From a virus, in the IMG/VR virus record IMGVR_UViG_3300030012_004106, positions 1 to 33,814 of that record: a DNA stretch of 33,814 nt. One strand, given 5' to 3'. This document shows, piece after piece, positions 10,795-32,621 of this stretch. Under the pieces are notes generated by a model. The model was not told the origin of the DNA. It ran no database searches and worked only from the letters and a program-made list of their open reading frames with translations. Position numbers and translations under genes: made by a program. Each line of letters opens with the position of its first letter. Within the stretch, counting starts at the first letter, position 1.

Positions 10795-13700
10795 ATGCCG
10801 GAAATTAAAAATACCTTTTTAAAAGGTAAAATGAATAAAGATCTTGATGAAAGATTAATTCCAAACGGAGAATATAGAGATGCGTTAAACGTAAAGGTTT
10901 CTACATCTGAAGATTCTGAAGTTGGAACAATACAAACAATACTTGGTAATGAACGTGCTGACGCTTTAGTTCCAAATGATCATGTTTGTGTCGGTAGTGT
11001 TTCAGATGAAAAAACTAATAAATTATATTGGTTTACTAAAACTTCTAGTGTAGATTTAATATTAGAATATGATCAAAATACACAATCTTCTCAATATGTA
11101 TTTGTTGATACTAAAACAAACACAGATGACGCTGTTTTAAAATTTCCTGATAGACTTATAACTGGTATAAATGTTATTGATAATCTTTTATTTTGGACAG
11201 ATGGAATAACAGAGCCTAAAAAAATAAACATAACAAACTGTATAATAGGAACTATACAAGATCCTTTAGTAGCTTTAACAAGTCATACTCAGTTAGTTGT
11301 TAACGGTGTAAACACTCTTACCGACATTAAAGAAGAAAATATAACCGTTATTAAAAAGAAACCAAATAGAGCTCCAGTAGCTAATATAGTTTATGCACAA
11401 AATACAGGTAATAGTAACGATAAAAATTCTTTATTTGAAAGAACTTTTTCAAGATTTTCTTTAAGATACAAATATGACGATGGTGAAGTTTCTGCTTTTG
11501 GACCTTTTTCAGATGTAGTCTTTAATCCTCAATATATTTCTAATACCAACTACGATGAGCTAGCTACTGTTGACGGTGCTAAAGAAAATAATTTTACTAG
11601 AAAAGAGCCTTTTAACAGGGCTATGGTTAATAAAATAGATAAAATAGAAATATTTGATTTTGTTTCACCAGAAATGCCAGGCAATGTTGTTGAAGTAGAA
11701 ATACTTTACAAACAAGAAGATTCACCTATTATATATTCTATAGCAAAACTAGATATAAACGATAATTCTTGGCAACAGCCTGGTTTTAATGAAGGTCATA
11801 GTGTTATTGATTCTGAATACAAAGGTAAATACACAATTGAAACAGAAAATATATACGCTGCATTACCAGAAAATCAATTTATTAGAGTTTTTGATAATGT
11901 TCCACGTTATGCTTTAGCTCAAGAAGTTACTGGCAGTAGAATAGTTTATGGTAACTACACTCAAAACTATGATATATTACGAGATGAATATAATCATGAA
12001 GTTAGATTAGAAGATAGAATTAATACCCAATACTTAAGCAACGATGGTAACTTTGATTTAAGTCCACAAAAAAGTTTAAAATCATTACGTAATTATCAGT
12101 TAGGTGTTGTGTATGGTGATAAGTATGGTAGAGAAACTCCTGTTTTTACAACAGAACGTGCAGCTGTTTCTATACCTTGGCAAGAAGGAAGTGATTTTAA
12201 CGCTAGTAAAAGATTAAGTTTAGTTGTAGATAATAGTACTAATTATCCAACTTGGGCTGATTATTTTAAATACTATGTAAAAGAAACTTCTACAGAATAT
12301 TATAACTTAATAATGGATAAGGCTTTTGTTCCTACATCTCAAGATGATGTTGACAGAAACTTACCGTCTGATCATATATGGCTTTCTTTTTTCTCTTCTG
12401 ATAGAAATAAAATAACAGAAGAAGATCATATAATATTAAAGAAAATATTTGGAACATTACCTGGTCAAATTACTCAAAACAATAAGTTTAAAGTAATAGA
12501 TGTAAAAAATGAAGCTCCAGAATCTATACAATTTGATACAAAAAGAGTTTATGTTGAAGTTAATCAACAAACATTAAATGACATTTTTGACATTAGTAGT
12601 AGTAGAATAACAGATACTGTAAGTCAAATAAAGTTAGATTTTGATGAATATATATCAGCTGGAGGTTATGATTTTTTATCTACAGATAGAACTGGTGACT
12701 CACCAACAGAACCTCAATTTAAAGTTACTGATCATTATATAATATGGCAAGACAACGCTACAACAGGTCCTACAGCTGGACAAGTTTCTAGAAGATATAG
12801 AATAGATAATGCTATTATAGATAACACTGAAATAATATTAAAGTTAGACAGAGCTATAACAACAGAAGATGCTAATATAGCAGACGTCAATAGCTCGACT
12901 AATGGTACTATAAAAAGTACACTTCAATTTGAAGTTGAAAGAAAACAAAGAAGAGAGTTAGATCAATTTTCTGGTAGATTTTTTGTTAAAATAGCTTTTA
13001 ATAATTTAGCTTCTCAAATACAAGATGTAATACCTGATTTAATAAATGCTTTTACACCTGTAAGTACTTTAGGCCTTAGACATTTTATAGATGAAGTTGA
13101 TTCTAATAGTCTTGATCCTAGCTCCGTAGCTGTAAATAATGATAATACTGGCGCAACCGCTTACACAAGCGCTGGAGGTAATAATGAAAACGTTGTTAAC
13201 GGTATTACGTTGGCTAGTGGCGTTACAAATACTAAATCTGATTGGAATGCTTTGACAGAAGAAATAAGTAGCGAAAGCGCTAGTACAGATGCAGATATAG
13301 AGTTTTTTATAGATGGTTTATATTATTGCGCTGGTAACTGGGGCGCTGAAATAGGCCAGCCTTTTGCTTCTAGAGCTGTAAACATACAAAGAGGTAATGG
13401 TACTGGTAGTGGTGGAGATCAATACGTTTATGTTGAATGGAAAGACACTTCATATTATGACGATTTACCTTGGAGAGCTAATAACGGTATAATTGATGTT
13501 AATGGAGCGGCAGGTGCGAATTCTAAGAATTATTATCCTTATGTAAAATATACTAATACTAAAGAAGGTCCACATAGCACAAGTGGTGGTGGTACAAATT
13601 TAAACGCTGGTAATAATGATTTTATAGACTATAACGGTCCAGATGGTGTTTATGGTAGTGGTGATAGATATGACAGTTCTCCAAATGGTTTAAGAGAAAT

Positions 13701-16700
13701 ACCTGGTATAGATTTAACAGGTACTACACTACAAACCTCTTTTGATCCTCCGGTTGGTGGAGCTGGTCAAATATCAACAAACTATGCGGCTCAAGTACCT
13801 ATGTTTAGATGGTTTCCTTTTGACAAAGATAATCACAACATGGGTGGTCTTGATGGTATAGACGCTTATTACAACAATACTAACACCCCTTGGAGAGGTG
13901 CTGTTGTTAACGTACATCCAAACTCTAGTAATATTACAGGTGATAACGTTACTTTTCCTATTCGTTTTTTCCACAAGTCTATATATAAAGATACTTTCAA
14001 TCCAGGAAATCCTATAACAGAAAACCTTCCTCCTTCTCATTATGGTTTAAATGGTTACCAAAATTCTGGTCACAATGCTACCGAAGTTGTAAATGCTTTA
14101 GAAGGTTTTATAGTTAGTACAAATGAACACACTACTGGTTCTAGAACTTGGAGAAAAGAAAATATAGGTAGTGTGTTTTCAAACTTTTCTAGCGATGACA
14201 CGTATGGTTCTGCAGGTGATGAAGGTAAATTTTATATACATCTTACATTTTTAGCGCCTGGCCAAGACTTAACAGATTCTACTTTTAGTTTACCTAGCAA
14301 TTTAGATATACAAGGTAATAATAGTTTAGGAAAACATTTACAAGGTATACATGGTGGTGGTGTTTTTACTAAATCATATAAACAAGCTACAGATGACGGG
14401 TTTGATGCTTTTGATAACACTGATAATTGGGATTCACCAAGAACTATACATTGTGAAGGTAGTACTAACAATACACTTACGTTAGATTTAGGTCATGATC
14501 CTAATTTTCAAAATTTACACGACGAACAGTGGGATCCTACAAAAACTCCTTATGGAGATCCAAACGGTACAATAGCAGGTTATATAAACCTAATAACAAC
14601 TACTGGTGCTAAATTTATTTTTGCTGGAGATACTAATAACACTGTATATACTATTTTAAGTACATCTAGAAAATATCTTTATAATCATACTCCTTGGAGA
14701 AGGAGATATATAAGAGATACTGCGGGATCTGCTCCTATTAACAGTTCGTATCAAGATGATTGGGCTCTTAACGGTAAAAATATAGCTGCTAATGATAGTG
14801 TTGAAGAAGCTGCTGTTACTTGGGCTAAGTCAAAAGCTCTTAATGAAGCACAAGCAACACAAACTGCAAATAGAGATGCTTTATCTCAAAAAATACAAGA
14901 TTTTGGCAAAAGAAATAATAGACGTGTTGTATATATTATTGAAATAGATAAAAACCCAACAGACGCTACTGTTAACGGTGGTTATAATCCTTTTGACGCT
15001 GACAATGATGGTGGAAGTGGAATTACAGCTGCTTCATCTGCAAACTTACAATTTATAAGTAACGTAGCTAATTTTTCTCAAGGTAGTAGTTCTATATTTC
15101 CTGCCATATGGGAAACTGAACCAAAGAAAAACACAGATTTAGAAGTTTATTACGAAGTTAGTAAAGCTGTACCTTTAAATATTAATAGTTTTAATAGAGA
15201 AACTTTAGCAACCGTTGGTTGTGAAATTAAACATGAAAGTATACAAGAAGCTATAACTGCAGGTACACCTGTATTTTTAGAAGGATGGAGAGAAGAACAA
15301 GGAGAGCAAATAGCAATTTTAAATCCCGGTTTAAACTCTCAATATCCTAGCACTATACCGATTGATTATGACAATACTTATATAACTTTTATTTCTAAAG
15401 ATGGTAGTTTTGTAAACGCACAAATAGAACCTTCTTCTTTAACAGCTGGTGCTTCAAATGGTTATTTTACAGAGTTTAGTATAAGATTAAATCAACCATC
15501 AACAATAACAGGTTTAAGTTATTACAATTCTTTTTCTTTTGGTAATGGTATAGAGTCAAATAGAATACGTGATGATTTTAATCAAATGCAGATTACTAAT
15601 GGAGCTAGAGCTTCTGCTGTTCTTGAAGAACCTTACAGCGTTGAAAATAAAAAAAGTAGCTTAATATACTCTGGTATATATAATTCAACTTCAAATATAA
15701 ACAACTTAAATCAGTTTATTGCCGGTGAAAAAATAACAAAAGATTTAAATCCTACATACGGTAGTATACAAAAATTATTTCAACGAAGAATAAGTTTAGT
15801 AGCTTTTTGTGAAGATAGAGTTGTAAGTATAGTTTCTAACAAAGACGCTTTATTTAATGCTGATGGTAATTCTCAATTAATTTCTACAAATAGAGTTTTA
15901 GGTGATGCTACGCCTTTTGTTGGTGATTATGGTATATCTAAAAACCCAGAAAGTTTTGCTAAGGAATCTTATAGAGCTTATTTTACAGATAAAAATAGAG
16001 GTGCTGTTTTAAGATTATCTAAAGATGGTATAACACCTATATCTCAAGCTGGTATGCATGATTGGTTTAGAGATAACTTACCTTTAGCAAATAAAATATT
16101 AGGAAGTTATGATGAATATAATCAAGATTATAATATAAGCTTGATAGTTGACTTACCTAATTACAATTTGATACAAAACTCATTTGTAGAAAGAGGTTCA
16201 GAGTTTGTTTCTTTAGGATCCGGTACAGAAAAAGTTATTGATGGTAGTTTAAATAGTAGCACTAATTATGATTTTCCTAAAGCGTTACCTTGGCAAAACG
16301 ATAATAGTTTTAGTAATGCAGATTCTAGTGGTATGGGACTTAAAAATCAAGATTTAATTAGTGAAGTTAAAATAATAAAACACGAGTTAATACCAGCTGG
16401 TTCTTTTCAAACTTATCAACCCGCTACTACTACAACTACAATAACAGTTCCTGCTGAGTCTTATATAGCTGCTACTTATAGTAATAATAACCCAGATAAT
16501 TATGGTAGTAGTAGCCAAAGTCAATTAATATATGGATACGCAACTGGACATACTCTCAGCGGCTCTATTAATATTTTTAATCCTGATAATGGTGCTGGTG
16601 CTTCTGATTCTCACCTAACACTAGGTACTAATGGTGAAAGAGAAGCTTATATTTTAAGATTTATAGACGAAAGCTTTGTTAACCCTCTTCAGGCTGCAGA

Positions 16701-19700
16701 TTACTTTGATTCTTCAGATTATAGCTTTTATAATAATGGTTATCAGTTTGATAACATATATATAGCTGAAGGTATGAGTGGTGATCCTATTGTTATTTCT
16801 GATCCTCACGATGCGAGTAGTCCACTTAGCTCATCAAATCAGTTTGATCTATCTTGGTTTAATGACGCGGGTATAATGTACGCTTCTAAAGGTACTTCTT
16901 CTGCTTCTTTAAATAGTGGGCCAACACCTCCAGGTCCAGGTAGAGTAAGTGATGCAACTGAAAGTTCTTTAAATTATGGCGACGCAATACAAAGCTCTTA
17001 TAATTCTTTTGCACATAGTATTAGAACTAATGATACTGATCTTTGTGTTTACAAAGGAGAAGTAATAATAGTAGAATATCATTTACGCTTTCAAAATTTC
17101 ATTGTAAATAGCAGTTATACATATAGTGGTGTGCCTAGTAATCATGCAGGAAACTCGAGATTATTTCATTTTTCAGGAGGTGAAGTACTAAATTCTAGTA
17201 TGACTCAAGGTAATGCTACTTATGATAATCCTGCTACTTCATACGCAGGAAGTACTTATCCTCTTCCTAATGGTGGAGAGTTTGGTACTGATGGTGGCTC
17301 TATAACTGTACAATGCTTTCTTATAGATGGAAATAATTTCACTGGTTTTGCTTCGTTATCAAGTTTGACTAACGGAACAGTATCTCCACTTACTGGTAAT
17401 GAGCTTTATTATGAAAGCTATAAAGATATGAACAATAATGATGGAAACTATTGGATTACAGATAAAGATGTTTGTAACCCACAGTGGTATTCATATGGCA
17501 ATGGTGGTAATGCAAGAGTAAGACAAGTTTTTAAATTTCCAGAGCACGTTAATGCTCCTGACACTTCTGGACCTACTTTAGATGATTTACTTGTTACAGA
17601 TGATTTAAGAGTAGTATTAAAGTTTAAACCTTCTGGAAACATGGTTCCAAATAATAATTATACTGGACCAGCTGGCTCTACAATTTATCCTGGACCTATA
17701 ATTATTAAAGACTTTAATGTTTATAAAGCTGACACAATAGCAAGTTTACCAGATAATAGTGTAACTCAACAATCAACTACAACTACTACAAATATGGTAC
17801 CAGGTATACCAACTGCTGATGTTCCAGAGTGGCACGAAATAATAGCAAATCAACCATACTGGACAACTGATAGGCCTGATTTAGTAAACTTACATGCTGT
17901 AGCTACTAATAATCATGGTGTTAATACAGGGTCAGTTAGTACAAATAGTGCAACAGATACTCAAGGTAATGTTTGGGTCTGGCAAGTTGATCCTTTGACA
18001 AATAGTTTTGGAACTGCTAACACAGATGCTCTTAACAATCCTTATGTTGCTGGTGATATTTACCAAACTATAGGTGTACCTACTACTGCTGGTGACGCTA
18101 TGTCTAATGCAAGCATTGTTGAGCCTTCACATATAAAAACTTATAACGATCAAATAGAAATAACACCTACAACTAGTAATCCATCTAACGTAAATATATA
18201 CCAAACTTTAACAAATGCTTATCAAGCTAGTCATTTTTATTTACTTGATGCTGTTACTAGTAAATCATCTTCTGCTGTTAGATCTGTTTATAGTAGAAAT
18301 TACGACAATACTAATAAAAATTTATTTGGAATACGTGGTATTTTTGATCCAAGTAGCACTGTAGTTACTGATACAGATGTTAGTTTTGAACAATCTGGAT
18401 ATCCTGGTTATCCTTATCATCATTTTGGTAGAATAAGAGGTAGTGTAAATAGCGCTTCAGGTAGAAGAATTCAAGCTCTTTTTGTGGATCCTACAAAAGA
18501 TGCTACAAACGATTACTTGTCTGATTATAATAATATTTATCACGAAACAAACGTAAATGGTTTTATTAATGTAAATCAACCTTTTTTACATTCGTTATTT
18601 AATTATGCTAGTTATGCAGCTGATACTAATGTTTTAAGATCTATATATAAAATGGATAGTAATAGTAATCACCTAGCAAATGATCCAGGATTGTTAAACA
18701 TTAATATTTTTCAGCCAACTGAATTTACATCGAGTGGTAATATTGGCGCTATAACAAGTCTTAGATTAATAGATCTTGGTTTAGATACAACAGGTGGAAC
18801 TCATTATAGCACTGGTAGTTTAACAGACTGGAACACAGGAAATTCTGCTTACCAACAGCATTTAATGGTTACACCTAGAAATTATGTAAATAACAATGTT
18901 AGCTATCATAATGGTTTAATGCCGAATGTTTTAAGTAAAGAGGGTAATCCTGCTTTTACAAATCCATCAACAGGCGCGCATTTTTCTCAAAGATATTCTA
19001 ATCCTGGTGGACAAGGACCTAATGAAATTGCTGAATTAGCACCACCAGCTACAGACTCTGGTTATGAATTTAGATTTGATTTTTTACCTGAACATTTACT
19101 TGCAACTAATTATGGAGGATGTTTTTGTAACGTAAATGGTGTAGATGGTAAAGGTTTTAGAATTAATGATATTACACAGACAGGTAGATATAAAATAATA
19201 GCTAATGTTGATAGTACAGATGATCCTATTGTTGATGGTACTGTTTGGAGTATAGAATATGATCCTGCATATGGAACAAATTGGCAATCAACAACTGCCA
19301 CACTTGTACCTCGTGATGTTTCAGCCCAAGCACCAGGCTCATTTGGTAGGTTTTATGGTAATGTTTTTTTTGGTGCAGATCCTAACAACGAAGGCATGTT
19401 CGCGTTTGGTGTTTCTAATATTAGTTTAGTTGATAGAACCGCTTATTATATAGCACCGTTTTCACCTTCTTGGATTTTTGTTAATAATACCGAGTTAGGA
19501 TTTAACTGGAGTAACGGACAGTTAGTTATAAATAGTGCTTATCGAAAAAACGCTATTGTTGGTGATCCATTGTTAAATTATCCTAACGCTTTTCAAGATG
19601 TAGGATTTATACCTCAAGGTCAAAAAATAAGATTTAGTGTTGACTACGCGGATCTTGGAGGAGATCCAAACGCTAATATTGAAATTTTTTATGTAAATAG

Positions 19701-20745
19701 TAATTTAAAAGGTTTTTATTTAGCATTTGGAGCTGGTGATAATGGTAATATTTTACATCCAAACGCTTCTGAATTAACAACATATCAAGAAGTACACGCG
19801 GACGGATCTTCTGGTACTTTTGAAGCTGAAGTAGAGGTTGGTGATTTATCTAATATAGAAGCTTTTGGTAATTTAACACCAGGAAGCATTGAGCTTCCTT
19901 ATATAAATAGACTTGTTATAAGAGCGGCTGGAACTTATGGTGGTTCAACTTACGAAAGTATAACAGCAAATTATTCTTTAGATAATTTTTCTATGGTTCC
20001 ATTTACACCTATAAATATAAGTCAAAACAAAACAATTAGTTTTAGTGAAGATGTTAATGGTTGGACTAGTTTTAAATCTTTTGCTCCAGAATCAGCATTA
20101 AGCTTATCAAAAAAATATTATACTTTTCATAATGGTGGTTTATATAAACACGACGTAGAAACAAATGGTTATAATAATTTTTACGGCACACAGTTTGATT
20201 CTAGCGTTACAGCTATTTTTAATGCAGAGCCATCAATGATAAAGTCTTTTAAAACTTTAAGTTACGAAGGCTCTAAATCACGTGTTTCTAAATTTGTTAC
20301 AACAAACATAGTTGATTCTAACAATACTATACTTGAAAATTTAGATACTCTTAATTATAGCCATGTAAATAATTTAGAAGATGTTGATGGTTGGTATGTA
20401 GAAAATATATCAACAAACAAGCAAGATGGTTTTGTAGATGAATTTATAGAAAAAGAAGGTAAGTGGTTTAATTATATAAAAGGTGGGTTGGTAACTATTG
20501 ATCAGGATTATATATCAAAACATACTGGAGATTTAAGTTTTCAAGGTATTGGAGAAATAGGCACTATACAAGATGTAACATTAACCGATACTGAACTTAA
20601 CGATATAGATCCATTAGAACCTGGAACTTCTGCAGCAAATGCTCCACTACCTAACATGGTTCAGCCAGTGCTTCAACCACCAGGCTCAGCTCCTTATACA
20701 CCACCTTCTGATCCAGCTGGAAGCGGAAATACTTCAATATATTAA
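10795..20745 (+). CDS. Giant muzzle / tail-stabilization-type protein with adhesin-like insertion
   Basis: At 3316 residues this is the largest protein in the window. The N-terminus (NTFLKGKMNKDLDERLIPNG, EYRDALNVKVST, VGTIQTILGN) matches the start of P22 gp10-like and crAss-like muzzle proteins, beta-propeller proteins that close the tail end. A second conserved block spans about residues 1448-1790, with ESNRIRDDFNQMQITNG, LIYSGIYNSTSNINNLNQF, SNKDALFNADGNSQ and GDYGISKNPESFA. A third spans about 3081 to the end (EDVNGWTSFKSF, GKWFNYIKGG). Between blocks two and three lie about 1290 residues of Asn/Ser/Thr/Gly-rich beta sequence. This stretch includes two Thr-runs (1878-1882 and 2328-2332) and two tandem jelly-roll-like modules (about 2755-2900 and 2900-3073). 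Other marine muzzle proteins are, as I recall, clearly shorter. The insertion is probably exposed and host-contacting. The final 50 residues are Pro/Gly-rich. The neighbours on both sides are tail genes. Confidence 0.8.
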   Translation: MPEIKNTFLKGKMNKDLDERLIPNGEYRDALNVKVSTSEDSEVGTIQTILGNERADALVPNDHVCVGSVSDEKTNKLYWFTKTSSVDLILEYDQNTQSSQYVFVDTKTNTDDAVLKFPDRLITGINVIDNLLFWTDGITEPKKINITNCIIGTIQDPLVALTSHTQLVVNGVNTLTDIKEENITVIKKKPNRAPVANIVYAQNTGNSNDKNSLFERTFSRFSLRYKYDDGEVSAFGPFSDVVFNPQYISNTNYDELATVDGAKENNFTRKEPFNRAMVNKIDKIEIFDFVSPEMPGNVVEVEILYKQEDSPIIYSIAKLDINDNSWQQPGFNEGHSVIDSEYKGKYTIETENIYAALPENQFIRVFDNVPRYALAQEVTGSRIVYGNYTQNYDILRDEYNHEVRLEDRINTQYLSNDGNFDLSPQKSLKSLRNYQLGVVYGDKYGRETPVFTTERAAVSIPWQEGSDFNASKRLSLVVDNSTNYPTWADYFKYYVKETSTEYYNLIMDKAFVPTSQDDVDRNLPSDHIWLSFFSSDRNKITEEDHIILKKIFGTLPGQITQNNKFKVIDVKNEAPESIQFDTKRVYVEVNQQTLNDIFDISSSRITDTVSQIKLDFDEYISAGGYDFLSTDRTGDSPTEPQFKVTDHYIIWQDNATTGPTAGQVSRRYRIDNAIIDNTEIILKLDRAITTEDANIADVNSSTNGTIKSTLQFEVERKQRRELDQFSGRFFVKIAFNNLASQIQDVIPDLINAFTPVSTLGLRHFIDEVDSNSLDPSSVAVNNDNTGATAYTSAGGNNENVVNGITLASGVTNTKSDWNALTEEISSESASTDADIEFFIDGLYYCAGNWGAEIGQPFASRAVNIQRGNGTGSGGDQYVYVEWKDTSYYDDLPWRANNGIIDVNGAAGANSKNYYPYVKYTNTKEGPHSTSGGGTNLNAGNNDFIDYNGPDGVYGSGDRYDSSPNGLREIPGIDLTGTTLQTSFDPPVGGAGQISTNYAAQVPMFRWFPFDKDNHNMGGLDGIDAYYNNTNTPWRGAVVNVHPNSSNITGDNVTFPIRFFHKSIYKDTFNPGNPITENLPPSHYGLNGYQNSGHNATEVVNALEGFIVSTNEHTTGSRTWRKENIGSVFSNFSSDDTYGSAGDEGKFYIHLTFLAPGQDLTDSTFSLPSNLDIQGNNSLGKHLQGIHGGGVFTKSYKQATDDGFDAFDNTDNWDSPRTIHCEGSTNNTLTLDLGHDPNFQNLHDEQWDPTKTPYGDPNGTIAGYINLITTTGAKFIFAGDTNNTVYTILSTSRKYLYNHTPWRRRYIRDTAGSAPINSSYQDDWALNGKNIAANDSVEEAAVTWAKSKALNEAQATQTANRDALSQKIQDFGKRNNRRVVYIIEIDKNPTDATVNGGYNPFDADNDGGSGITAASSANLQFISNVANFSQGSSSIFPAIWETEPKKNTDLEVYYEVSKAVPLNINSFNRETLATVGCEIKHESIQEAITAGTPVFLEGWREEQGEQIAILNPGLNSQYPSTIPIDYDNTYITFISKDGSFVNAQIEPSSLTAGASNGYFTEFSIRLNQPSTITGLSYYNSFSFGNGIESNRIRDDFNQMQITNGARASAVLEEPYSVENKKSSLIYSGIYNSTSNINNLNQFIAGEKITKDLNPTYGSIQKLFQRRISLVAFCEDRVVSIVSNKDALFNADGNSQLISTNRVLGDATPFVGDYGISKNPESFAKESYRAYFTDKNRGAVLRLSKDGITPISQAGMHDWFRDNLPLANKILGSYDEYNQDYNISLIVDLPNYNLIQNSFVERGSEFVSLGSGTEKVIDGSLNSSTNYDFPKALPWQNDNSFSNADSSGMGLKNQDLISEVKIIKHELIPAGSFQTYQPATTTTTITVPAESYIAATYSNNNPDNYGSSSQSQLIYGYATGHTLSGSINIFNPDNGAGASDSHLTLGTNGEREAYILRFIDESFVNPLQAADYFDSSDYSFYNNGYQFDNIYIAEGMSGDPIVISDPHDASSPLSSSNQFDLSWFNDAGIMYASKGTSSASLNSGPTPPGPGRVSDATESSLNYGDAIQSSYNSFAHSIRTNDTDLCVYKGEVIIVEYHLRFQNFIVNSSYTYSGVPSNHAGNSRLFHFSGGEVLNSSMTQGNATYDNPATSYAGSTYPLPNGGEFGTDGGSITVQCFLIDGNNFTGFASLSSLTNGTVSPLTGNELYYESYKDMNNNDGNYWITDKDVCNPQWYSYGNGGNARVRQVFKFPEHVNAPDTSGPTLDDLLVTDDLRVVLKFKPSGNMVPNNNYTGPAGSTIYPGPIIIKDFNVYKADTIASLPDNSVTQQSTTTTTNMVPGIPTADVPEWHEIIANQPYWTTDRPDLVNLHAVATNNHGVNTGSVSTNSATDTQGNVWVWQVDPLTNSFGTANTDALNNPYVAGDIYQTIGVPTTAGDAMSNASIVEPSHIKTYNDQIEITPTTSNPSNVNIYQTLTNAYQASHFYLLDAVTSKSSSAVRSVYSRNYDNTNKNLFGIRGIFDPSSTVVTDTDVSFEQSGYPGYPYHHFGRIRGSVNSASGRRIQALFVDPTKDATNDYLSDYNNIYHETNVNGFINVNQPFLHSLFNYASYAADTNVLRSIYKMDSNSNHLANDPGLLNINIFQPTEFTSSGNIGAITSLRLIDLGLDTTGGTHYSTGSLTDWNTGNSAYQQHLMVTPRNYVNNNVSYHNGLMPNVLSKEGNPAFTNPSTGAHFSQRYSNPGGQGPNEIAELAPPATDSGYEFRFDFLPEHLLATNYGGCFCNVNGVDGKGFRINDITQTGRYKIIANVDSTDDPIVDGTVWSIEYDPAYGTNWQSTTATLVPRDVSAQAPGSFGRFYGNVFFGADPNNEGMFAFGVSNISLVDRTAYYIAPFSPSWIFVNNTELGFNWSNGQLVINSAYRKNAIVGDPLLNYPNAFQDVGFIPQGQKIRFSVDYADLGGDPNANIEIFYVNSNLKGFYLAFGAGDNGNILHPNASELTTYQEVHADGSSGTFEAEVEVGDLSNIEAFGNLTPGSIELPYINRLVIRAAGTYGGSTYESITANYSLDNFSMVPFTPINISQNKTISFSEDVNGWTSFKSFAPESALSLSKKYYTFHNGGLYKHDVETNGYNNFYGTQFDSSVTAIFNAEPSMIKSFKTLSYEGSKSRVSKFVTTNIVDSNNTILENLDTLNYSHVNNLEDVDGWYVENISTNKQDGFVDEFIEKEGKWFNYIKGGLVTIDQDYISKHTGDLSFQGIGEIGTIQDVTLTDTELNDIDPLEPGTSAANAPLPNMVQPVLQPPGSAPYTPPSDPAGSGNTSIY

Positions 20746-22711: not shown

Positions 22712-23605
22712 ATGGAAGAAAATAATTTGCAAAAAAAATCACCAGCTAAACTTTTTTCTCTTTTTGGTCTATCAGCAGCTGCTTCGATAGGTCTTATTGG
22801 AGCTGGTGTTAGTGCTTATCAAGGTTATAAGAGTAGAAAACAACAAAAAAGACAGTTTAAAGAGCAACAAAAAAACTTAAAAGAAATAGAAGCTCAAAAA
22901 CTAGCTTTTCAAAAAGAACAGCAAGCAAAACTTGATGCACAAAGAGCAGAGTATAGAGCTATGGAATTTATAAATCCTTATGCTGATTTTGGTGATAGAT
23001 ATAGTGAAGTTAGTGGTATGTATTCTAATTTAGCGAGTACAATGGAAAATACTTTTGAAGATATTACTGTTGATCAAAGAGCTGCTGATTTTCAAAAAGG
23101 AACTTTAGCTCAACAATCAGCAAATATATTACAAAATTTACAACAAGCTGCTGGTGGTAGCGGTATAGCTTCTTTAGCTCAACAGCTTGCAAATCAACAA
23201 CAATTAACAGCAGGTAGAATATCAGCTGATTTAGCTAAACAAGAAAGACAAAATCAATTGTTATCTGCTCAACAAGAAGCTAGACTACAACAACAAAGAG
23301 CCAACATGGAATTACAAGGCGCTCAATTAGGTTTAAAAGGAGAGCTAATAGAAGCTGGTGGTGAAGCTATGCTTCAAGAAGCTGAAATGTCAAGACAATC
23401 TACATTACTTGGTATGCAATATGGTTCTTCTATAGGTGCTAATCAAGCTTTAAATCAAGCACAGCAAAATACTTTAATGGCTCAGAATCAAGCTAATCAA
23501 ATGCAATTATCTAACATGCAAGCTACCGCTGGTATTTTTAATAACTTAAGCAAAATAGATTTTACTGGTCTTGATTTTAGTCAAGGTATAAGTTTCGGTG
23601 GTTAA
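22712..23605 (+). CDS. Internal virion protein, membrane segment plus Gln-rich coiled coil
   Basis: Residues about 13-37 (KLFSLFGLSAAASIGLIGAG) form a hydrophobic Ala/Gly helix. A highly charged Gln/Lys/Glu coiled coil follows (about 40-90), then NPYADFGDRYSEVSG and ENTFEDITVDQRAADFQKGT. The rest is a Gln/Ala-rich helical region, including QQAAGGSGIASLAQQLANQQ. The lay-out and the NPYAD/ENTFEDLTV-type motif are those of internal or ejection proteins of podoviruses (the role of T7 gp14) and of crAss-like cargo proteins. Such proteins are carried in the capsid or tail and released to form a channel through the cell envelope. The next two genes encode further internal-protein candidates. A 44-base A/T-rich gap precedes it, a possible promoter position, but no convincing promoter can be read. 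Confidence 0.72.
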   Translation: MEENNLQKKSPAKLFSLFGLSAAASIGLIGAGVSAYQGYKSRKQQKRQFKEQQKNLKEIEAQKLAFQKEQQAKLDAQRAEYRAMEFINPYADFGDRYSEVSGMYSNLASTMENTFEDITVDQRAADFQKGTLAQQSANILQNLQQAAGGSGIASLAQQLANQQQLTAGRISADLAKQERQNQLLSAQQEARLQQQRANMELQGAQLGLKGELIEAGGEAMLQEAEMSRQSTLLGMQYGSSIGANQALNQAQQNTLMAQNQANQMQLSNMQATAGIFNNLSKIDFTGLDFSQGISFGG

Positions 23606-23621: not shown

Positions 23622-25406
23622 ATGGCAAAAAAAATAGTTGGAAGAGCAGATAGTGTATTAGTTGGAATGGCGCTAAAAGAAGGTATGTCACAAATACCTG
23701 CTGACATGAGTGGTGTTTTAAAAGAAATGGGTACTACATATGGATTAACTAATGCTTTTATACAAAAACAATTTGAAAGTCTTGTTTCACAAACTAACGA
23801 AGCTAACGAAGAGCTACTAAGTGTAGTAAATCCTTTGTATGATATGTTGCAAGATGGTTCTTTTACAGATGAAGACATGATGAGTTTTACAAAAGATATT
23901 GATGCTTTGAAAGAAGAGTGGAAAACTTTAAAAACCGACGAAGAAAGGATGAGGTGGACAGCAAAGTCAAATAGAATTAGAAATAGTTTAAATTCTTTTA
24001 ACAACGATTTAAATAGTATAACAACCATGATAGCTAATGATCAATATGTAGCTGCTGGTTCTGATGGTTTTGAGGGTAATACTTCTGCTGAAAATTTACA
24101 ATTCTTAACTGCTATATATAATAAGAGAACTGGTAAAGGTGATAATAAAGCTGAAAGAATTATAGATTCAGAAGGTAATGTTAGTTATACAGCTACTGTA
24201 AAGGATGCTGATGGAAATGACAAATCTATAGAAATGTCACTTCCAGATATAAAAAAGATAATACCTACAACTGATAATGGTGCGTTAAGTGCTAGAGAAA
24301 CTTTAATGTATAATATTAAAAATTATGGTAATAAAGCTGGAACATCATATAACTCTAACTATCAAAAAGATATTGCTGACGGTATGTTTAGAATTGTAAA
24401 TAGTTCAAAATCACCAAGAGATGCTTTTTTAACATTAGCGCATCAGTCTTATAGTGGAGCTACTGGTGAGTCTTTTTACGAAGCTTTAAATAGTCCTTAT
24501 AGCTCTTTATCTCAAGTATTAAAAAATAGTTTAAAAAACGCAAAACTACCAGCAAGTAAGTTTGATAAAAACAATGATGACAAAGTTAATGAATTAGACT
24601 TTCAAAATTTTGAAAATTTTCAAAAAATAAAACAATATATAATGAATAATCCAAAAGTTGGGGCTAGATTGCTTGGTGATTGGACAGCTGCAACAGATGG
24701 TTTAAAATCTTTTAGTGTTGGAGAAGGAATGAGAACTAAAAATGGCGGTAGTAGTGGTTCAGGTACTTTTAAAGATTATCTTTATTATCAAATACCTGGG
24801 AGTGATGAAAAAAGAAGTGGTTCTGCTGTTATAAACTTAAGAAATCAAATTAAAAATATTGTACTAGGCAAAACAAAAAACAATTCATTTACAGGTTATT
24901 TTACTGATTATATATACCAAACAGAAGGAAAAAATGCAGGTGAATTTTTACATAAAGAAGATAATAAATATCTTTCTGTTTACGATGTTTTAATTAAAGA
25001 AGGTTTATATGATTCAAAAGATAAATTTGATATAGGCTTAGGCACAGCAAGTTCAGAAAATGAAACAAAACAGCTAAGTGCTATAGATTTACAAAGCGCA
25101 CAAAGTGCTAATGAAATATTTAAGATTATTGACAACACTTTTACTGATAAAAACGAAAAAATTAGAAAACAAACAGGTAGCGCTGGAGGATTAAGAGTTG
25201 AAAAATCTGGTCAAGAAATAACACTTTTTGAAGCTAATAAAAAAATAGGAACATTTAGTTTAGGTGGTAATTATGGTTTTGGACTTACTTCTCGATCTGC
25301 TGATAACAAAGGTCGTGCTTTAGATCAGTTAGAAAAGTTGATAAACGCTGTTAACTCTTCCTTAGGTTTTATTAGTGATGAATATAATTCAACTCAAAAA
25401 CAATAA
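23622..25406 (+). CDS. Internal virion protein candidate with a single calcium-loop motif
   Basis: This 594-residue protein is soluble and largely helical in its first 160 residues (for example SLVSQTNEANEELLSVVNPL and FTKDIDALKEEWKTLKTDEE). A mixed region follows with ERIIDSEGNVSYTATVKDAD. Residues 315-327 (DKNNDDKVNELDF) fit a 12-residue calcium-binding loop of EF-hand/dockerin type: acidic or amide side chains at positions 1, 3, 5 and 9, Val at 8 and Asp at 12. Only one copy is present, while dockerins have two. Helices flank it (KNSLKNAKLPASKF and FENFQKIKQYIMN). No enzyme motif was recognised. The gene lies between two internal-protein genes with 12-16 base gaps, so it is probably co-packaged. 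The function remains unassigned; the class call rests on position. Confidence 0.65.
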   Translation: MAKKIVGRADSVLVGMALKEGMSQIPADMSGVLKEMGTTYGLTNAFIQKQFESLVSQTNEANEELLSVVNPLYDMLQDGSFTDEDMMSFTKDIDALKEEWKTLKTDEERMRWTAKSNRIRNSLNSFNNDLNSITTMIANDQYVAAGSDGFEGNTSAENLQFLTAIYNKRTGKGDNKAERIIDSEGNVSYTATVKDADGNDKSIEMSLPDIKKIIPTTDNGALSARETLMYNIKNYGNKAGTSYNSNYQKDIADGMFRIVNSSKSPRDAFLTLAHQSYSGATGESFYEALNSPYSSLSQVLKNSLKNAKLPASKFDKNNDDKVNELDFQNFENFQKIKQYIMNNPKVGARLLGDWTAATDGLKSFSVGEGMRTKNGGSSGSGTFKDYLYYQIPGSDEKRSGSAVINLRNQIKNIVLGKTKNNSFTGYFTDYIYQTEGKNAGEFLHKEDNKYLSVYDVLIKEGLYDSKDKFDIGLGTASSENETKQLSAIDLQSAQSANEIFKIIDNTFTDKNEKIRKQTGSAGGLRVEKSGQEITLFEANKKIGTFSLGGNYGFGLTSRSADNKGRALDQLEKLINAVNSSLGFISDEYNSTQKQ

Positions 25407-25418: not shown

Positions 25419-28400
25419 ATGATCGAGATTTACGAGGTTGACGGTAGAAAATATAGAGTTAGCCAAGACAACTTACAAAGATTTTTAAATGATTTTCCTA
25501 ATGCTGTAAAAGCGGGAAAAGAACAAGGTTCGACGGAAGATCCGACGATGAACCAAGAAAGTATGGGATCAAATTTGGAAACTGGTTCTTCGGATTCTTT
25601 AAATTGGTTTGAACAAGCTTTACAAGCTGGTAAAGTAAACGCTGATTTATATGACGATGCAGATGCTATTTTTGATGTAAGTAGTTCTACAGAAGTTGCT
25701 AATTTATCAGATGATCAGTTAAAAGCTTATATATCGTTAATACAACAATCTCAAGCTTCTGCGGCTGAAATGGAAGAGCTTAATAAGTTTACTACTGCTT
25801 TTCAAAAATACAACTCTCAAGGTGAAAACTGGGCGATGTCTACTATCAACGCTATAAAAGAAACTGGTAACGTTAAAGGTTTTGCTCAATCTGCAATACA
25901 AAGTTTTAGATCAATGGCTAATAAAGAATTAGCAAAAGAAGCTATTGCTCCTACTTTAACCGCAGCTGGAACTGGTGCAGCTGCTACAGCTTATGGTTTT
26001 GGTATTGGGGCTATACCTGCTGCTTTTACAGGTTTATTCGGATCTATGAATTATGGTTTAGAAACTATAAACACTTTTAATGAGTTATTACAAGAAGAGA
26101 TAAAAAACGCTAATTTAGATTTTAACCCAGATTCTATAAGAAAAATATTAGCTGATGACACCATAAGAAAAAGAATAAAGGCAAGGGCTAGAAAAAGAGG
26201 TCTTACTATAGGTACGGTAGAAGGTTTAACAACTTTAGTAGGTGTTAAAGGTGCTGGTGCTGTTAGTAAAGCTATAGGTGATGTTTCTACAACAGCAGGT
26301 AGAATCGCTAAAACAACAGCGCAAACAGCCGTAACTACACCTATTGAAGCTGTTGGAGGTGGTTTAGGTGAATTTTTAGGTGCTAAAGCAGCCGGTAAAG
26401 AAGCTACAGGTGTAGATGTTATTTTAGAAGGTCTTTCTGGTTCAGTTGTTTCTGGACCTATAGACGCTAGTATTGCTGCTGTTGATTTAACTGTTAACAA
26501 ACCTTCTTATGAAATAAATGGTAAAAAAGTAAAAAAACAGTCTGTATTAGATTACATAGAAAATGACGATATAACTAGTCAAGAACTAGCTGATTTAGAT
26601 ATTAAAATTAAAAATGACAATAACTTTGAAAATAAAGTTAAAGTTATACAACAAAGAGCTACTATAGATAAAAACTTAGACACTTCTATATCTAAAGAAA
26701 AAAGAGATAAATTAATAGATTTAGAGTTTAAAAGATTTAACTTAAAGCAAGATATTAAAAACCAAGGTGAAAATAAGTTAATAGATACAAATAAAAAACT
26801 AAAAGATGTTGAGAGTCAAATAAATGACATTATAGAAGATGTAGAAGGCGTAACAATTCAAGATGTTGAAACTGCTGTAGAAACTGGTGCAAAAGAAATA
26901 GAGTTAAAAAAAGACGTTGCTTTTGCTAAAAAATATGCTCGTTTTTATGATTTAGAAGTTAACGAGTTAAAAGATCAAGCTGCTATAGATAAATATATTA
27001 AAGATAATAATATTACAGATAAACAAGATTTAAAGGATCTTAAATTAGCTGGCTATGTAAATGAAAAAACTGGTGAAATAATAATTAATAAACAAAAGGC
27101 TTTAGAGTTAAATAACGTTACTGTTGGTAACCATGAGCTTTTACATGGTATACTTAGAAAAGCTGTTAAAGAAGGTAAAATAAGCAAAAAGCTAATAGAT
27201 AATATAAAGAATAAATATGGTAAAGCTTTAGAAAAAAGATTACAACCTTATCAAAATATAAAAATAAAAGGTAAAGCTTATTTGGAAGAAAATCCAGATG
27301 AGTATATAACACAGTTATCAGAAGCAGTACAAGCAAAAGAAATAACATTAGACCAAAGCGCACTTGGAAAATTCAAAGAGTTGATATTACCTATACTTAG
27401 AACTTTTGGTTTTGGAAAAATAGATTTTGAAACAGTTGAAGGTGTTGAAAGCTTTTTAAAAGAATATTCAACAAGTGTTAAAACTGGAAAACTAAGTAAA
27501 GGTTTAATAAATCAAACAGCTTCAAAAAGAGAAGGTGCCACTAGTAAAACTTTTTCTATAGCGCCAGGTATAAAAAAAGATTTAACAGAAGAGCAAGCTA
27601 CCACAGAAGTTAACGATATTGGTAGAAAAAATGAGTTTGGTGATGATTTAGAGGGTCAAGATGGTAATGCTATGTGGAAGGCTGTTGAAGGTGACGATGC
27701 TGCTAGAAGAATACAAGAACAAGGCTTGTTAGATAAACTAATATTAAAAAAACCTCATGTTGGTGTTGATGATGCTAGTTTTTTAAGCGCTACTTATACA
27801 GCTTTATTACCACATATTAGAAACTATAAGCCTGAAAGAAAAAATCCTAACGGTTTGTTTGGTTGGATTAATCCACAAATAGGTAATAAAGCTAAACAAG
27901 CATATAACGATCTTCAAAAAGGTAAAACAACTCAACCTACTGTAGATATTGGCCAAACAACAAAAGAAGGTGAAGTAAAAGTACAAGTTGCAGCAGACAA
28001 AGACGTTGCTATGCAAGAGCTTGAGACTAAAGATGTTAGTATTGCTGCTCAAATAAAAGAAAAGCAAGGTAAAAAACCAAAACTTGTAGCTTACTCTAAA
28101 CTTAGACAAGAAGTTGGTATAGAAACTGGTAGTGAGTTATATAATAGAATATTAGATTCTGTTAAAAAAAGTTTGTTTGCGGCTTATGCTAAAACAGAAA
28201 ATATTACTAACGTAAAAGAAAGAGTAGACAATATAGTTGAAATGTTACGTAAAGAATATACAACTAAAGGTAATTTTACTCCTATATTTAAGCAAATAAA
28301 AAATCTTTTATCAGAAGGCAAGTATATTGATAATTTAAAAAAATACAAAGAAGTTTTTATTGAGCAAGTTAAAACAGCTGATCTTGTTCAGATGTTAAGA

Positions 28401-31400
28401 GAAGCGCCTGAAGGCGAGCAGTTTGGGTTAAAATTTGTTGCACAACTTACTAATAAAGCTGATGTAAAAAAATATGTTGATTTAGGTAAGTTACCAAAAG
28501 ATTCTTTAAACAAAATGGACAAAGGTCAAGCTATTAATTTGTATGAAAAAACAAAACCTACTGATGAAAAAATTGTAGCATTTGCAGACAAACCACCAAT
28601 AAATCCTGAAACAGGTAAAAGATCAGGTTTAAAAGGTACTAGAAAAGATAACTTTGCAAAACGTTTTCAACAAATATTTGTAGACGATGCTATAATGCAA
28701 GTTAGGCAAAGTGAAGAGTTTAAAGCTTTAGTTGATCAAAAAGTTAGTATTGAAAATGATGTTCAAGAGTTAGCCGCAGCTGTTGATAAAGATGTTGATA
28801 AAAAGTTTACTTTAAATGATAATTTAGTTTTTAACTTAAGAGATACTTTAGAAACTTTAATACAAGAAACTAGCGATCAAAATAAACGAGTTACTAGTAA
28901 AGACTTTACATCTAAAGTTATAAAAGTTAATAGAGATGAAGATGGTAAGCTTATAAATGTAGAGTTTCAAAAAGGTAAAGAAATAAAAGGTGTAAGAGGT
29001 GGTGAAATAAAAAAGAGTAAACAAGATTTTGTTGCTAAACTTGCGTATGATATAATGAACGCAAGAAATTATGAAAGAGCAACAAATATAAATATTTACA
29101 AAAAACCTTTATATAAACTTATTGAACAAAAAAAAGCAAGAAATGAAGGTGAAGCCAATGAATTATTTCAAAAAAATGAAATAGATAAAAATTTACCTAA
29201 AGGCGCTAAAATTGTAGATGGATATGGAGATATATATATACGTGTAGGTAATTTTGTAATTGGTATTGAAGTTAAACTAGGTGAAGCACAGGGTGTTAGT
29301 CAGCTTTTAAGTTATACGAAAGATGGTGTTAACTTTCCAAACGAAAACTTTACTATTAATCAAAAAACAGGCTTATCATATGACAACGAAATAGCTAGCT
29401 TAATGTTAGCTAAAAAACCTGAAATAAATAAAAAATTAGCAGATAAAGGTTTATCTACAATTGAAAATTTTTCAACTAAACTATCACAAGAGCAAATTAA
29501 TTTTTTAAAACCATATAGAAAAGAGTTTATTATAAATACTAATGTTTCGCTTGAATATTTTATGTCTGCTTATGCAAATGGAAAATATGCTAAAGATCCA
29601 CAAGGTGTTTTATTGTTTGAAAACTTTTTGTTTTTAATGGAAACTGGTGTAGATGCTGTTGATCAAAAAAGTATTGCTTTTGCTGAAGAGTTTAAAGAAC
29701 TTACTGGTAAAGAAATTACACAGTTAAAACTTGATGGTGTAAAAAATATTGAAGTTGCTATTAATTTAGATATTGTTGATGGCAAATTAAAATTTAGATT
29801 AAGGCCTTTAATAGATATAAATAATTTTAATACTACAAATGCAGTAGAAGTTAATAAAGATGTTCACAAAAAAATAGGTGAAGCAGTTGTAGAAGCATCT
29901 AATAAATATAGTTTAAACAATAAAAATGCTAATTTAAGTAAAGCATTAGCAAACGTTAGAGAAGCATTAAACTATGATAAAAACAAAAAAGGTATGTCAA
30001 CTTTTGATTTTGACGAAACTCTTATTGATAAAGGTAAAAACTTTATAATAGCTAAAAAAGATAATGAAGAGATTAAAATAAGTAGTGCTGATTGGCCTAT
30101 AAAAGGTCCTGAACTTGATAAACAAGGTTATAGTTTTGATTTTACAGATTTTGTTAATGTTAGAGGTGGTATTGAAGGACCACTATTACAAAAAATGCGT
30201 AATCAAATTAAAAAGTTTGGACCTAGTAATGTATTTGTATTAACTGCTAGGCCACCAGAAAGCGCTAAAGCAATACATGGTTGGTTAAAAACAAAAGGAA
30301 TAAATATATCTTTAGATAATATAACTGGTTTAGGTAATAGTACTGGCGAAGCAAAAGCGTTATGGATGGCTGAAAAATTTTCTCAAGGTTATAATGACAT
30401 GTATTTTGTTGATGATGCTTTACCAAACGTAAAAGCTGTTAAAGATATATTAGATCAACTAGATGTTAAATCAAAAGTTGTACAAGCTAGAAAAAAGTTT
30501 AGCTTAGACATGAATAAAAGTTTTAATGATATATTAGAGCAAGTGACAGGTATTGAGTCAAACAAACGTTTTTCAGATGCTAAAGCTAGAAAGCGTGGTA
30601 GTGGTAAAGGTAGATTTAGATTTTTTGTACCACCATCACATGAAGATTTTGTAGGTTTATTATATAACTTCATAGGTAAAGGTGAGCAAGGTAATAAACA
30701 TATAAAGTTTTTTGAAAAAGCTTTAATAAAGCCTTTAAATAAAGCTTATAGAGAGTTAAGCCAAGCTAAACAGTCTATAGCAAATGATTATAAAAACTTA
30801 ATTAAACAAATGCCTGATATACGTAAAAAATTACTACAAAAAACGCCAGATGGTGATTTTTCGTATAGTGATGCTGTTAGAGTTTATTTGTGGGATAAAT
30901 TTGGTTTTGATATACCTGGATTAAGCAAAACAGATAAACAAAACTTAATAGATCTTGTTGAAGCAGATGGTAAACTAAAAAGATTTGCTTTAAAAATAGG
31001 TATAATATCAAGAGTAAAAGAAGGTTATGTAGAGCCAGGTGAACATTGGATAGCTGGTGATATAAGGCAAGATTTAGCTGATGCTACAGGTAGAGTTGGT
31101 AGAAAAAAGTTTTTTGCAGAATTTATTGAAAACTCTGATCAAATTTTTGGTAAATTAGTAAATGGTAAACTTACTGGTGATAATGTAAATAAAATTAGAG
31201 CTGAGTTTGGTGACAATTTTGTTGAAGCTTTAGAAGATATGTTATATGCAACACAAACTGGTACAAATAGAAAACAAGGCAGAAGCAGACAGGTTAATTC
31301 GTTTTTAGACTATTTAAATGGATCTGTTGGTGCTACAATGTTTTTTAATGCTAGATCAGCTGTATTACAGACATTATCTACAGTTAACTTTATAAATTTT

Positions 31401-32621
31401 GCTGATAATAATATATTTAAAGCAGCAGCTAGATTTGCAGATCAAAAACAATTTTGGTCAGACTTTTCAATGTTATTTAATTCTGACTTTTTAAAACAAA
31501 GAAGATCTGGTGTTGGATTTGATGTTAATGGCGCTGAAATAGCAAACGCTGTTGGTAAATCAAAACAACCTGTTAAAGCAGCTATAGCTTATATACTACA
31601 AAAAGGTTTTTTACCTACACAAATGGCTGATAGTTTTGCTATTGCGCTTGGTGGTGCCAGCATGTACCGTAATAGAGTAAATACATACAAGTCGCAAGGA
31701 TTGTCACAAAAACAGGCAGAAACAAAAGCGTTTGATGATTTTATGGATATTGCTGAAAGTACACAGCAGTCAGCAAGACCAGACAAACTGTCACAACAAC
31801 AAAGATCTCCTCTTGGCCGTATGATATTAGCTTTTCAAAACGTAACATCACAATATGTTAGGTTAATAAAAAAAGCTGGTTTAGATTTAATTAATAGAAG
31901 AAAGTCACCAGGTTACGATAGTCAAGTTAAAAGTGATATGTCTAATATATCTAAAATAATATATTATGGTGCTGTACAAAATTTAATATTTTATAGTTTG
32001 CAAAGTGCTTTATTTGCTATGGCTTTTGAAGATGATTTAAATGAAGACAAAAAAGATGATAAATTTTTCAAAACTAAAAAACAAAGGTTATTAAACGGTA
32101 GTATAGACAGTATATTAAGAGGTATGGGTGTTGGTGGCGCTATAATATCTGTTTTAAAAAATGCAGTTATAAAATACGGTGAACAACAAGAAAAAGGTTG
32201 GGGTAAACAGCTAGGTGTTATAAGTGATGAGTTATTACAATTATCACCTCCAGTAGGTATTAAGCTTAGAAAATTAGATAGCTTTGAAAAAACTATGGAA
32301 TACAATAAAAAAGTAATACCTGAAATGGACACGTTTGATATTGATAATCCTATGTGGGATGCTTATGGTAATTTAGTTGAAGGATTAACAAATGTGCCTG
32401 TAGCTAGATTACTTAGAAAAGTTGAAAACGTAAGATCAGCTTTAGATAGTGAAAACGCTTGGTGGCAAAGACTTGCACTTGGTTTAGGTTGGAGTAAATG
32501 GGAGTTAGGTATTGAAGATAAAGAAATAAAAGAAGTAAAAGAGCAAATTAAAAAAACTAACAAAAGAGTTAATAGAGATACTAAACGTAAAAAAAGAAAG
32601 TTTCCAACTAGAACGTTTTAA
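25419..32621 (+). CDS. Giant multidomain internal virion protein: metallopeptidase, nuclease-like and HAD phosphatase motifs
   Basis: This 2400-residue protein is probably packaged and ejected. In order: an N-terminal motif (MIEIYEVDGRKYRVSQDNLQ); a Gly/Ala-rich hydrophobic region (about 165-365), possibly membrane-active; and an HExxH zinc-peptidase motif, H572-E573-L-L-H576, with downstream acids (E628, E635) that could be the third ligand. Next comes a PD-(D/E)XK-like nuclease motif, D1271 then E1284-V-K1286. Then an HAD set: D1530-F-D1532-E-T1534, T1609 in VFVLTARPP, K1646 and D1665-D1666. The C-terminal third (from about 1720) resembles a conserved region of internal proteins from marine phages: FRFFVPPSHEDFVGLLYN, GATMFFNARSAVLQTLSTVN, KGFLPTQMADSFAIALGG and a Trp-rich WWQRLALGLGWSKWELGI. 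Four K-[FY]-[ST]-L-like motifs (711-714, 1129-1132, 1496-1499, 1693-1696) sit between domains. The layout is that of polyvalent proteins. Activity of each domain is untested. Confidence 0.78.
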   Translation: MIEIYEVDGRKYRVSQDNLQRFLNDFPNAVKAGKEQGSTEDPTMNQESMGSNLETGSSDSLNWFEQALQAGKVNADLYDDADAIFDVSSSTEVANLSDDQLKAYISLIQQSQASAAEMEELNKFTTAFQKYNSQGENWAMSTINAIKETGNVKGFAQSAIQSFRSMANKELAKEAIAPTLTAAGTGAAATAYGFGIGAIPAAFTGLFGSMNYGLETINTFNELLQEEIKNANLDFNPDSIRKILADDTIRKRIKARARKRGLTIGTVEGLTTLVGVKGAGAVSKAIGDVSTTAGRIAKTTAQTAVTTPIEAVGGGLGEFLGAKAAGKEATGVDVILEGLSGSVVSGPIDASIAAVDLTVNKPSYEINGKKVKKQSVLDYIENDDITSQELADLDIKIKNDNNFENKVKVIQQRATIDKNLDTSISKEKRDKLIDLEFKRFNLKQDIKNQGENKLIDTNKKLKDVESQINDIIEDVEGVTIQDVETAVETGAKEIELKKDVAFAKKYARFYDLEVNELKDQAAIDKYIKDNNITDKQDLKDLKLAGYVNEKTGEIIINKQKALELNNVTVGNHELLHGILRKAVKEGKISKKLIDNIKNKYGKALEKRLQPYQNIKIKGKAYLEENPDEYITQLSEAVQAKEITLDQSALGKFKELILPILRTFGFGKIDFETVEGVESFLKEYSTSVKTGKLSKGLINQTASKREGATSKTFSIAPGIKKDLTEEQATTEVNDIGRKNEFGDDLEGQDGNAMWKAVEGDDAARRIQEQGLLDKLILKKPHVGVDDASFLSATYTALLPHIRNYKPERKNPNGLFGWINPQIGNKAKQAYNDLQKGKTTQPTVDIGQTTKEGEVKVQVAADKDVAMQELETKDVSIAAQIKEKQGKKPKLVAYSKLRQEVGIETGSELYNRILDSVKKSLFAAYAKTENITNVKERVDNIVEMLRKEYTTKGNFTPIFKQIKNLLSEGKYIDNLKKYKEVFIEQVKTADLVQMLREAPEGEQFGLKFVAQLTNKADVKKYVDLGKLPKDSLNKMDKGQAINLYEKTKPTDEKIVAFADKPPINPETGKRSGLKGTRKDNFAKRFQQIFVDDAIMQVRQSEEFKALVDQKVSIENDVQELAAAVDKDVDKKFTLNDNLVFNLRDTLETLIQETSDQNKRVTSKDFTSKVIKVNRDEDGKLINVEFQKGKEIKGVRGGEIKKSKQDFVAKLAYDIMNARNYERATNINIYKKPLYKLIEQKKARNEGEANELFQKNEIDKNLPKGAKIVDGYGDIYIRVGNFVIGIEVKLGEAQGVSQLLSYTKDGVNFPNENFTINQKTGLSYDNEIASLMLAKKPEINKKLADKGLSTIENFSTKLSQEQINFLKPYRKEFIINTNVSLEYFMSAYANGKYAKDPQGVLLFENFLFLMETGVDAVDQKSIAFAEEFKELTGKEITQLKLDGVKNIEVAINLDIVDGKLKFRLRPLIDINNFNTTNAVEVNKDVHKKIGEAVVEASNKYSLNNKNANLSKALANVREALNYDKNKKGMSTFDFDETLIDKGKNFIIAKKDNEEIKISSADWPIKGPELDKQGYSFDFTDFVNVRGGIEGPLLQKMRNQIKKFGPSNVFVLTARPPESAKAIHGWLKTKGINISLDNITGLGNSTGEAKALWMAEKFSQGYNDMYFVDDALPNVKAVKDILDQLDVKSKVVQARKKFSLDMNKSFNDILEQVTGIESNKRFSDAKARKRGSGKGRFRFFVPPSHEDFVGLLYNFIGKGEQGNKHIKFFEKALIKPLNKAYRELSQAKQSIANDYKNLIKQMPDIRKKLLQKTPDGDFSYSDAVRVYLWDKFGFDIPGLSKTDKQNLIDLVEADGKLKRFALKIGIISRVKEGYVEPGEHWIAGDIRQDLADATGRVGRKKFFAEFIENSDQIFGKLVNGKLTGDNVNKIRAEFGDNFVEALEDMLYATQTGTNRKQGRSRQVNSFLDYLNGSVGATMFFNARSAVLQTLSTVNFINFADNNIFKAAARFADQKQFWSDFSMLFNSDFLKQRRSGVGFDVNGAEIANAVGKSKQPVKAAIAYILQKGFLPTQMADSFAIALGGASMYRNRVNTYKSQGLSQKQAETKAFDDFMDIAESTQQSARPDKLSQQQRSPLGRMILAFQNVTSQYVRLIKKAGLDLINRRKSPGYDSQVKSDMSNISKIIYYGAVQNLIFYSLQSALFAMAFEDDLNEDKKDDKFFKTKKQRLLNGSIDSILRGMGVGGAIISVLKNAVIKYGEQQEKGWGKQLGVISDELLQLSPPVGIKLRKLDSFEKTMEYNKKVIPEMDTFDIDNPMWDAYGNLVEGLTNVPVARLLRKVENVRSALDSENAWWQRLALGLGWSKWELGIEDKEIKEVKEQIKKTNKRVNRDTKRKKRKFPTRTF

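Follow-up and report, generated by a model that had tools for sequence, protein, structure and literature searches.

The final gene of the particle-building block of a marine phage encodes a 2400-residue protein, P0001, which is probably an ejected multi-enzyme giant, with a protease-like and a phosphatase-like core and one exchangeable slot. We class it with the known polyvalent and ejection proteins, among which it is a new variant. The gene lies in a window of 33,814 nucleotides (the whole stretch of DNA analyzed, 33.8 kb out of a 43.2-kb viral record), along which terminase, portal, and capsid-type genes are followed by a 3316-aa muzzle-like gene, small genes, g11, g12, and P0001. ORF calling and a translation check gave a P0001 frame that opens with ATG and runs for 2400 codons with no internal stop. 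The nearest terminase is that of phage genome MW202828 (64%), and the next are those of Flavobacterium Elemovirus, Cellulophaga Pachyviridae/Pervagoviridae, Tenacibaculum, and Maribacter phages, which makes a bacterium of the Bacteroidota the most likely host. As a separate observation, the crassvirus muzzle C-terminal domain occurs here in a phage with a Pachyviridae/Elemovirus-type terminase.

Features of the P0001 gene and of its neighbors (positions are those of the window)
Feature	Residues of P0001	Positions	Strand	Description	Basis
Muzzle-like tail protein		10795..20745	+	3316 aa, crassvirus muzzle C-terminal domain	PF25729, E 3.8e-10
g11		22712..23605	+	297 aa; residues 14-32 hydrophobic, followed by a Gln-rich part; candidate small ejection protein of the gp14 type, judged by its features and position
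g12		23622..25406	+	594 aa, middle-sized, between g11 and the giant gene; gp15-like place
P0001	1-2400	25419..32621	+	2400 aa, putative giant internal virion/polyvalent-type protein	ORF call; relatives
N2 region	186-409	25974..26645	+	glycine/alanine-rich, mildly hydrophobic stretches
Zincin-like domain	502-697	26922..27509	+	H572-E573-x-x-H576 and invariant E628	alignment, model, elemoF gp18 profile match
M module	737-1133	27627..28817	+	helical	linked to nuclease-like motif
R domain	1140-1500	28836..29918	+	PD-(D/E)XK-like nuclease; E1248, D1271, E1284, K1286	alignment
HAD phosphatase-like domain	1513-1699	29955..30515	+	D1530/D1532, T1609, K1646, D1665/D1666, N1670
C1 and C2	1701-2390	30519..32588	+	conserved all-helical C-terminal module

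A preliminary description of the gene had placed three enzyme signatures in this one frame, and every residue it named was verified: H572, E573, and H576; D1271, E1284, and K1286; D1530, D1532, T1609, K1646, D1665, and D1666. Shuffles of P0001 yielded HExxH in 0.3% of cases, the ordered HAD set in 2.3%, and a loose PD-(D/E)XK pattern in 8.7%, so that the last is weak when taken alone. Beyond these signatures, we found the zinc ligand E628, the alpha-A glutamate E1248, a conserved 700-residue helical C terminus, and a mosaic build.

A first scan for relatives gave 27 loci, and a scan of one viral collection with a HAD profile gave at least 473 confirmed tblastn matches, 80 of which were kept for analysis; architectures were compared in 96 fetched members carrying both HAD and C2. 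The HAD scan required DFD[ED]T or ND[MF]YF[VA]D, and the conservation of D1530, D1532, and D1665 is for this reason partly selected; T1609, K1646, and D1666 lie outside the search patterns and are therefore free of this bias. All 96 members had HAD, C1, and C2, and 88 had a zincin-type HExxH; M was present in about 23, R in 8 (one of them a duplicate), and a kinase in 6. Judged by sequence, the HAD-like domain is retained in hundreds of related ocean viruses and the zincin-like one in nearly all of those checked, and other predicted enzymes are swapped in. P0001 thus joins several enzyme domains, exchangeable among members, in one phage chain encoded at the position of an ejection gene, and its earlier description as a polyvalent-type protein stands.

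Several relatives depart from the common plan. In L014 the giant protein is divided over two overlapping frames (9356-10663 and 10654-16857), through either a sequencing error or a real split, and in L021 (residues 1898-2349) and L102 (residues 2442-2925) HAD and C1 are separated by an unassigned insertion of 450-480 residues, which starts similarly in the two proteins. L029 encodes, at 3799-6255, an 818-aa protein with GCxDxxAxNY repeats, whose C terminus is similar to the sorting tails of type IX secretion and points to a Bacteroidota host, and, at 2693-3217 (record 35692-36216), a small protein with the PAP2/acid phosphatase motifs KxxxxxxRP, PSGH, and SRxxxxxHxxxxD. A search of genome contigs returned one match, a 6.6-kb contig that had been binned into a Maricaulis MAG but probably derives from a phage. 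The whole of P0001 gave no tblastn match among 50,697 phage records, and HAD plus the C terminus alone gave nothing credible. Searches of Pfam, PHROGs, and NCBIfam with P0001 or its domains produced no direct match except to weak HAD models.

HExxH occurred 89 times in the 96 members, against 1.3 expected, and H572, E573, H576, and the third ligand E628 were identical in 59/59 aligned members; the zincin assignment is upheld by both results. Seven of the eight members without a zincin-type HExxH look truncated, and the eighth, L103, carries HEVLGH. In the model of this domain (pLDDT about 70-84) H572/H576 and E628 sit on separate helices behind short strands, the layout of polyvalent-protein zincins, which likewise carry their ligands on separate helices (PMC5512222). 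A zincin profile matched elemoF gp18 at HEIFH (37 bits) and MW202828 at HEFGH (17 bits), with reversed-sequence controls for the profile searches reaching at most about 7 bits. PDB sequence profiles gave only chance matches for this domain, and a fold search with the model of residues 480-1500, whose overall confidence was low, returned no zincin and nothing interpretable among the best 50 matches. P0001 did not match Pfam MPTase-PolyVal (PF18818) at E<=10, nor LPD38 (PF18857) at the same threshold, the latter being a weak search, as no control genome matched either.

HAD motifs I (DxDxT), II (T), III (K), and IV (DD) follow one another in order, with the T, K, and DD present in 93/93 aligned members. 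T1609, A1610, R1611, K1646, D1666, and N1670 were identical in all 93, and D1530 and D1532 in 91; the identity of T1609, K1646, and D1666 bears out the earlier contention that the motif set is no chance match. NCBIfam assigned P0001 to HAD-SF-IA at 2.3e-4 (best member, 9.5e-6) and also matched HAD-IIIC/IB, and the Pfam matches of the region were HAD and DUF2608. A Foldseek search, the kind of check called for by the preliminary description, found Legionella Ceg4 (prob 0.92, E 0.23) and several HAD hydrolases at moderate confidence; the model has strands at 36-41, 116-120, and 171-176, with the catalytic residues at the proper strand and helix ends. Generic HAD subfamilies match best: the DNA 3'-phosphatase model TIGR01664 was a weak match (E 0.023, 3/18 members), and PNKP in the PDB matched at E 0.67. 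In the cultured relatives that were examined, the giant protein carries no HAD.

In five relatives (L013, L017, L021, L023, and L114) HAD motifs I and II are separated by an inserted P-loop kinase, about 175 residues long, and a part of this insert remains in L012, whose start is cut off. These five have no nuclease; in P0001 itself no Walker A was found and the kinase is absent. The insert matched two PHROGs families, phrog_505 of phage polynucleotide kinases (1.3e-11) and phrog_8238 of RNA ligases, and, in Pfam, Zeta toxin/PezT (8.8e-13); its sequence places it in the Zeta-toxin/polynucleotide-kinase group and no more finely than that. In T4 Pnkp an Arg follows the Asp at a distance of three residues; in the alignment, the insert lacks this Arg. 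Zeta toxin/PezT phosphorylates a sugar nucleotide. Three relatives of the kinase, Atu_ph07 gp053 included, were examined and showed no HAD motif I; the myophages Melnitz and HTVC008M encode theirs as separate, stand-alone proteins.

The R domain had one sequence relative at first, and the larger HAD-based set brought seven distinct members; a single-sequence search of viral contigs with this domain had found nothing. E1248, D1271, E1284, and K1286 are invariant in the seven, all but one of which are only 28-31% identical to P0001, and this conservation sustains the PD-(D/E)XK-type site proposed earlier. Over all members, the loose pattern occurred 24 times versus 15.5 in shuffles (sd 4), not clearly above expectation, and a tighter motif in 16/92 members versus 2.4 in shuffles. 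Because the tighter motif was defined after the loose matches had been seen, more weight falls on the seven-member alignment and on the spacing, which is also significant, the motif lying 240-275 residues before HAD in 15 of the 16 members that bear it. It was found in 13/23 members with M versus 3/69 without (Fisher p 2e-7). The R region was modeled at pLDDT 24-35, a PD-(D/E)XK core was not obtained, and PDB sequence profiles gave only chance matches. That nuclease and HAD always occur together was rejected: HAD is present in all 96 members, the R domain in 8/96 (7 distinct), and the motif in 16/92. The nuclease-phosphatase pair put forward in the preliminary description is thus not general, since HAD is near-universal and the nuclease occasional; judged from the domain content of these members, an end-cutting and end-processing pair is a possible configuration of the exchangeable slot, not a rule.

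Outside the enzyme domains, N2 is possibly membrane-active and is also found in the last structural gene of MW202828 (a 3859-aa protein, 41.5 bits). C1-C2 is the most conserved large stretch of the giant protein, and C2 occurs in Tenacibaculum phage Gundel_1 gp074 (33 bits), which, like elemoF gp18, is called a "structural protein". P0001 has distant homologs among the giant structural proteins that cultured phages encode. In Gundel_1 and elemo the term is an annotation, and mass spectrometry is absent from the main text of PMC8776804. A BFVD fold search with the C-terminal model returned relatives from uncultured viruses, one of them named UDP-N-acetylglucosamine kinase, and polyvalent and MuF proteins at low TM-scores.

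Podovirus ejection genes are reported in the order gp14, gp15, and a larger gp16 (PMC8954989), and g11, g12, and P0001 form the same small-medium-giant order adjoining the structural genes. A g11-type gene precedes the giant gene in nearly all listed relatives and is annotated "virion structural protein" in cultured phages. In crassviruses the cargo proteins gp45-gp50 come after the muzzle gp44 in numbering (PMC10172136). We read P0001 as a giant ejected podovirus protein of the gp16/N4-gp50 type because of the gene order, the upstream muzzle gene, and the weak homology to "structural proteins" of Flavobacteriia phages; the traits of g11 and the parallel with N4 gp50 lead to the same reading. 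Its presence in the virion would follow, by analogy, from gene order and the annotations of distant relatives. A role as virion RNA polymerase was rejected, as P0001 has no Pfam RNAP match and no DxDGD motif.

On the preferred reading, P0001 would be the third, giant ejection (internal virion) protein of a short-tailed Bacteroidota phage with Elemovirus, Pachyviridae, and Pervagoviridae kin, stored in the particle and entering the cell through the muzzle-tipped tail, either ahead of the DNA or together with it. This protein would act as a multi-enzyme delivery chain in which N2 and helical C1-C2 probably serve membrane passage and packaging, and the zincin probably cleaves either a host protein or, once inside the cell, its own chain. 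The conserved HAD domain would work early in infection as a phosphomonoesterase, its most likely substrate being the end of a nucleic acid or a nucleotide, and the slot before it would be exchangeable, filled in P0001 by a PD-(D/E)XK-type nuclease.

What the enzymes do in the cell can be understood in several ways. The nuclease may cut nucleic acids and HAD remove 3' phosphates, with a polynucleotide-kinase-like domain taking the place of the nuclease in relatives to make a Pnkp-like kinase-phosphatase. The P-loop kinase within HAD of the five relatives and its remnant in L012, the matches of this kinase to phrog_505 and phrog_8238, the weak HAD matches to TIGR01664 and PNKP, and the position of the nuclease motif before HAD in 15 members all speak for such end-processing; we nevertheless regard it as possible but somewhat unlikely, as the kinase resembles Zeta toxin/PezT equally, lacks the T4 Pnkp-type Arg, and only a minority of HAD members have the nuclease. 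It seems unlikely that HAD instead destroys a defence signaling nucleotide or a modified nucleotide on entry, with nuclease and kinase as independent effectors. Early action would suit virion delivery, a general theme of such proteins (PMC5512222), and HAD is near-universal with variable partners; however, no sequence feature points to a signaling nucleotide. Phages also encode stand-alone HADs for nucleotide salvage. More speculative, and quite unlikely, is the picture in which a widespread group of marine phages injects a self-cleaving multi-enzyme chain with HAD as a socket, some phages having a polynucleotide-kinase-like domain spliced into it and others a PD-(D/E)XK nuclease set before it, and so heals or cuts DNA or RNA ends before phage gene expression.

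Two further readings would shrink the enzymatic role. P0001 might be mainly a structural or tunnel protein whose enzyme sites act in particle maturation and not in the host, as the conservation of helical C1-C2 could suggest; we consider this very unlikely, since catalytic residues that are fully invariant in two unrelated enzyme folds, together with the swapping of entire enzyme modules, are more in keeping with effectors than with scaffolding. Alternatively, only the zincin and HAD would be real and the PD-(D/E)XK signature a product of chance. The frequency of the pattern in shuffles of P0001 (8.7%) and the lack of structure or PDB profile support favor this, but an E-D-ExK set invariant in seven divergent members and a near-constant spacing in 15 make it very improbable.

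If the preferred reading, ejection of a multi-enzyme giant, is true, P0001 represents a large uncultured family (at least 473 tblastn matches) of ejected proteins in which exchangeable nucleic-acid or nucleotide enzymes accompany a fixed core of protease and phosphatase, in parallel to the N4 virion RNA polymerase. A conserved HAD would then be placed in the position of an ejection protein, and what short-tailed marine Bacteroidota phages deliver with their DNA would become testable.

Comparison with known systems places P0001 between several of them. Like the polyvalent proteins of Iyer et al. 2017 (PMC5512222), it has many enzyme domains per phage chain, a zincin hub, and exchangeable modules; unlike them, it matches neither MPTase-PolyVal nor LPD38 of Pfam, and the main text of that study does not have HAD, phosphatase, or polynucleotide kinase as domain terms. 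T4 Pnkp and PNKP likewise join a P-loop kinase and HAD in one unit, as do five or six relatives of P0001, but in these relatives the kinase is inserted inside HAD, and P0001 has none. The crassvirus cargo proteins gp45-gp50 showed no homology in Pfam/PHROGs searches of P0001, which also lacks an RNA polymerase motif, yet they too are encoded right after the muzzle gene, and the muzzle-like protein of this phage has crAss_MUZ_C. P0001 has no detectable sequence match to T7 gp14-gp15-gp16, no transglycosylase domain was found in it, and its predicted enzymes are zincin, nuclease, and HAD, in a chain of 2400 aa; the two systems nevertheless share a virion block of three clustered genes of rising size, with a small hydrophobic one first and the giant last. 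Compared with the virion RNA polymerase gp50 of N4/Schitoviridae, no RNA polymerase domain or motif was found in P0001, which has HAD and PD-(D/E)XK instead, but the overall plan is alike: a giant protein, ejected in N4 and putatively so here, in which a HExxH domain is followed by a large, mostly helical C terminus (PMC12633501).
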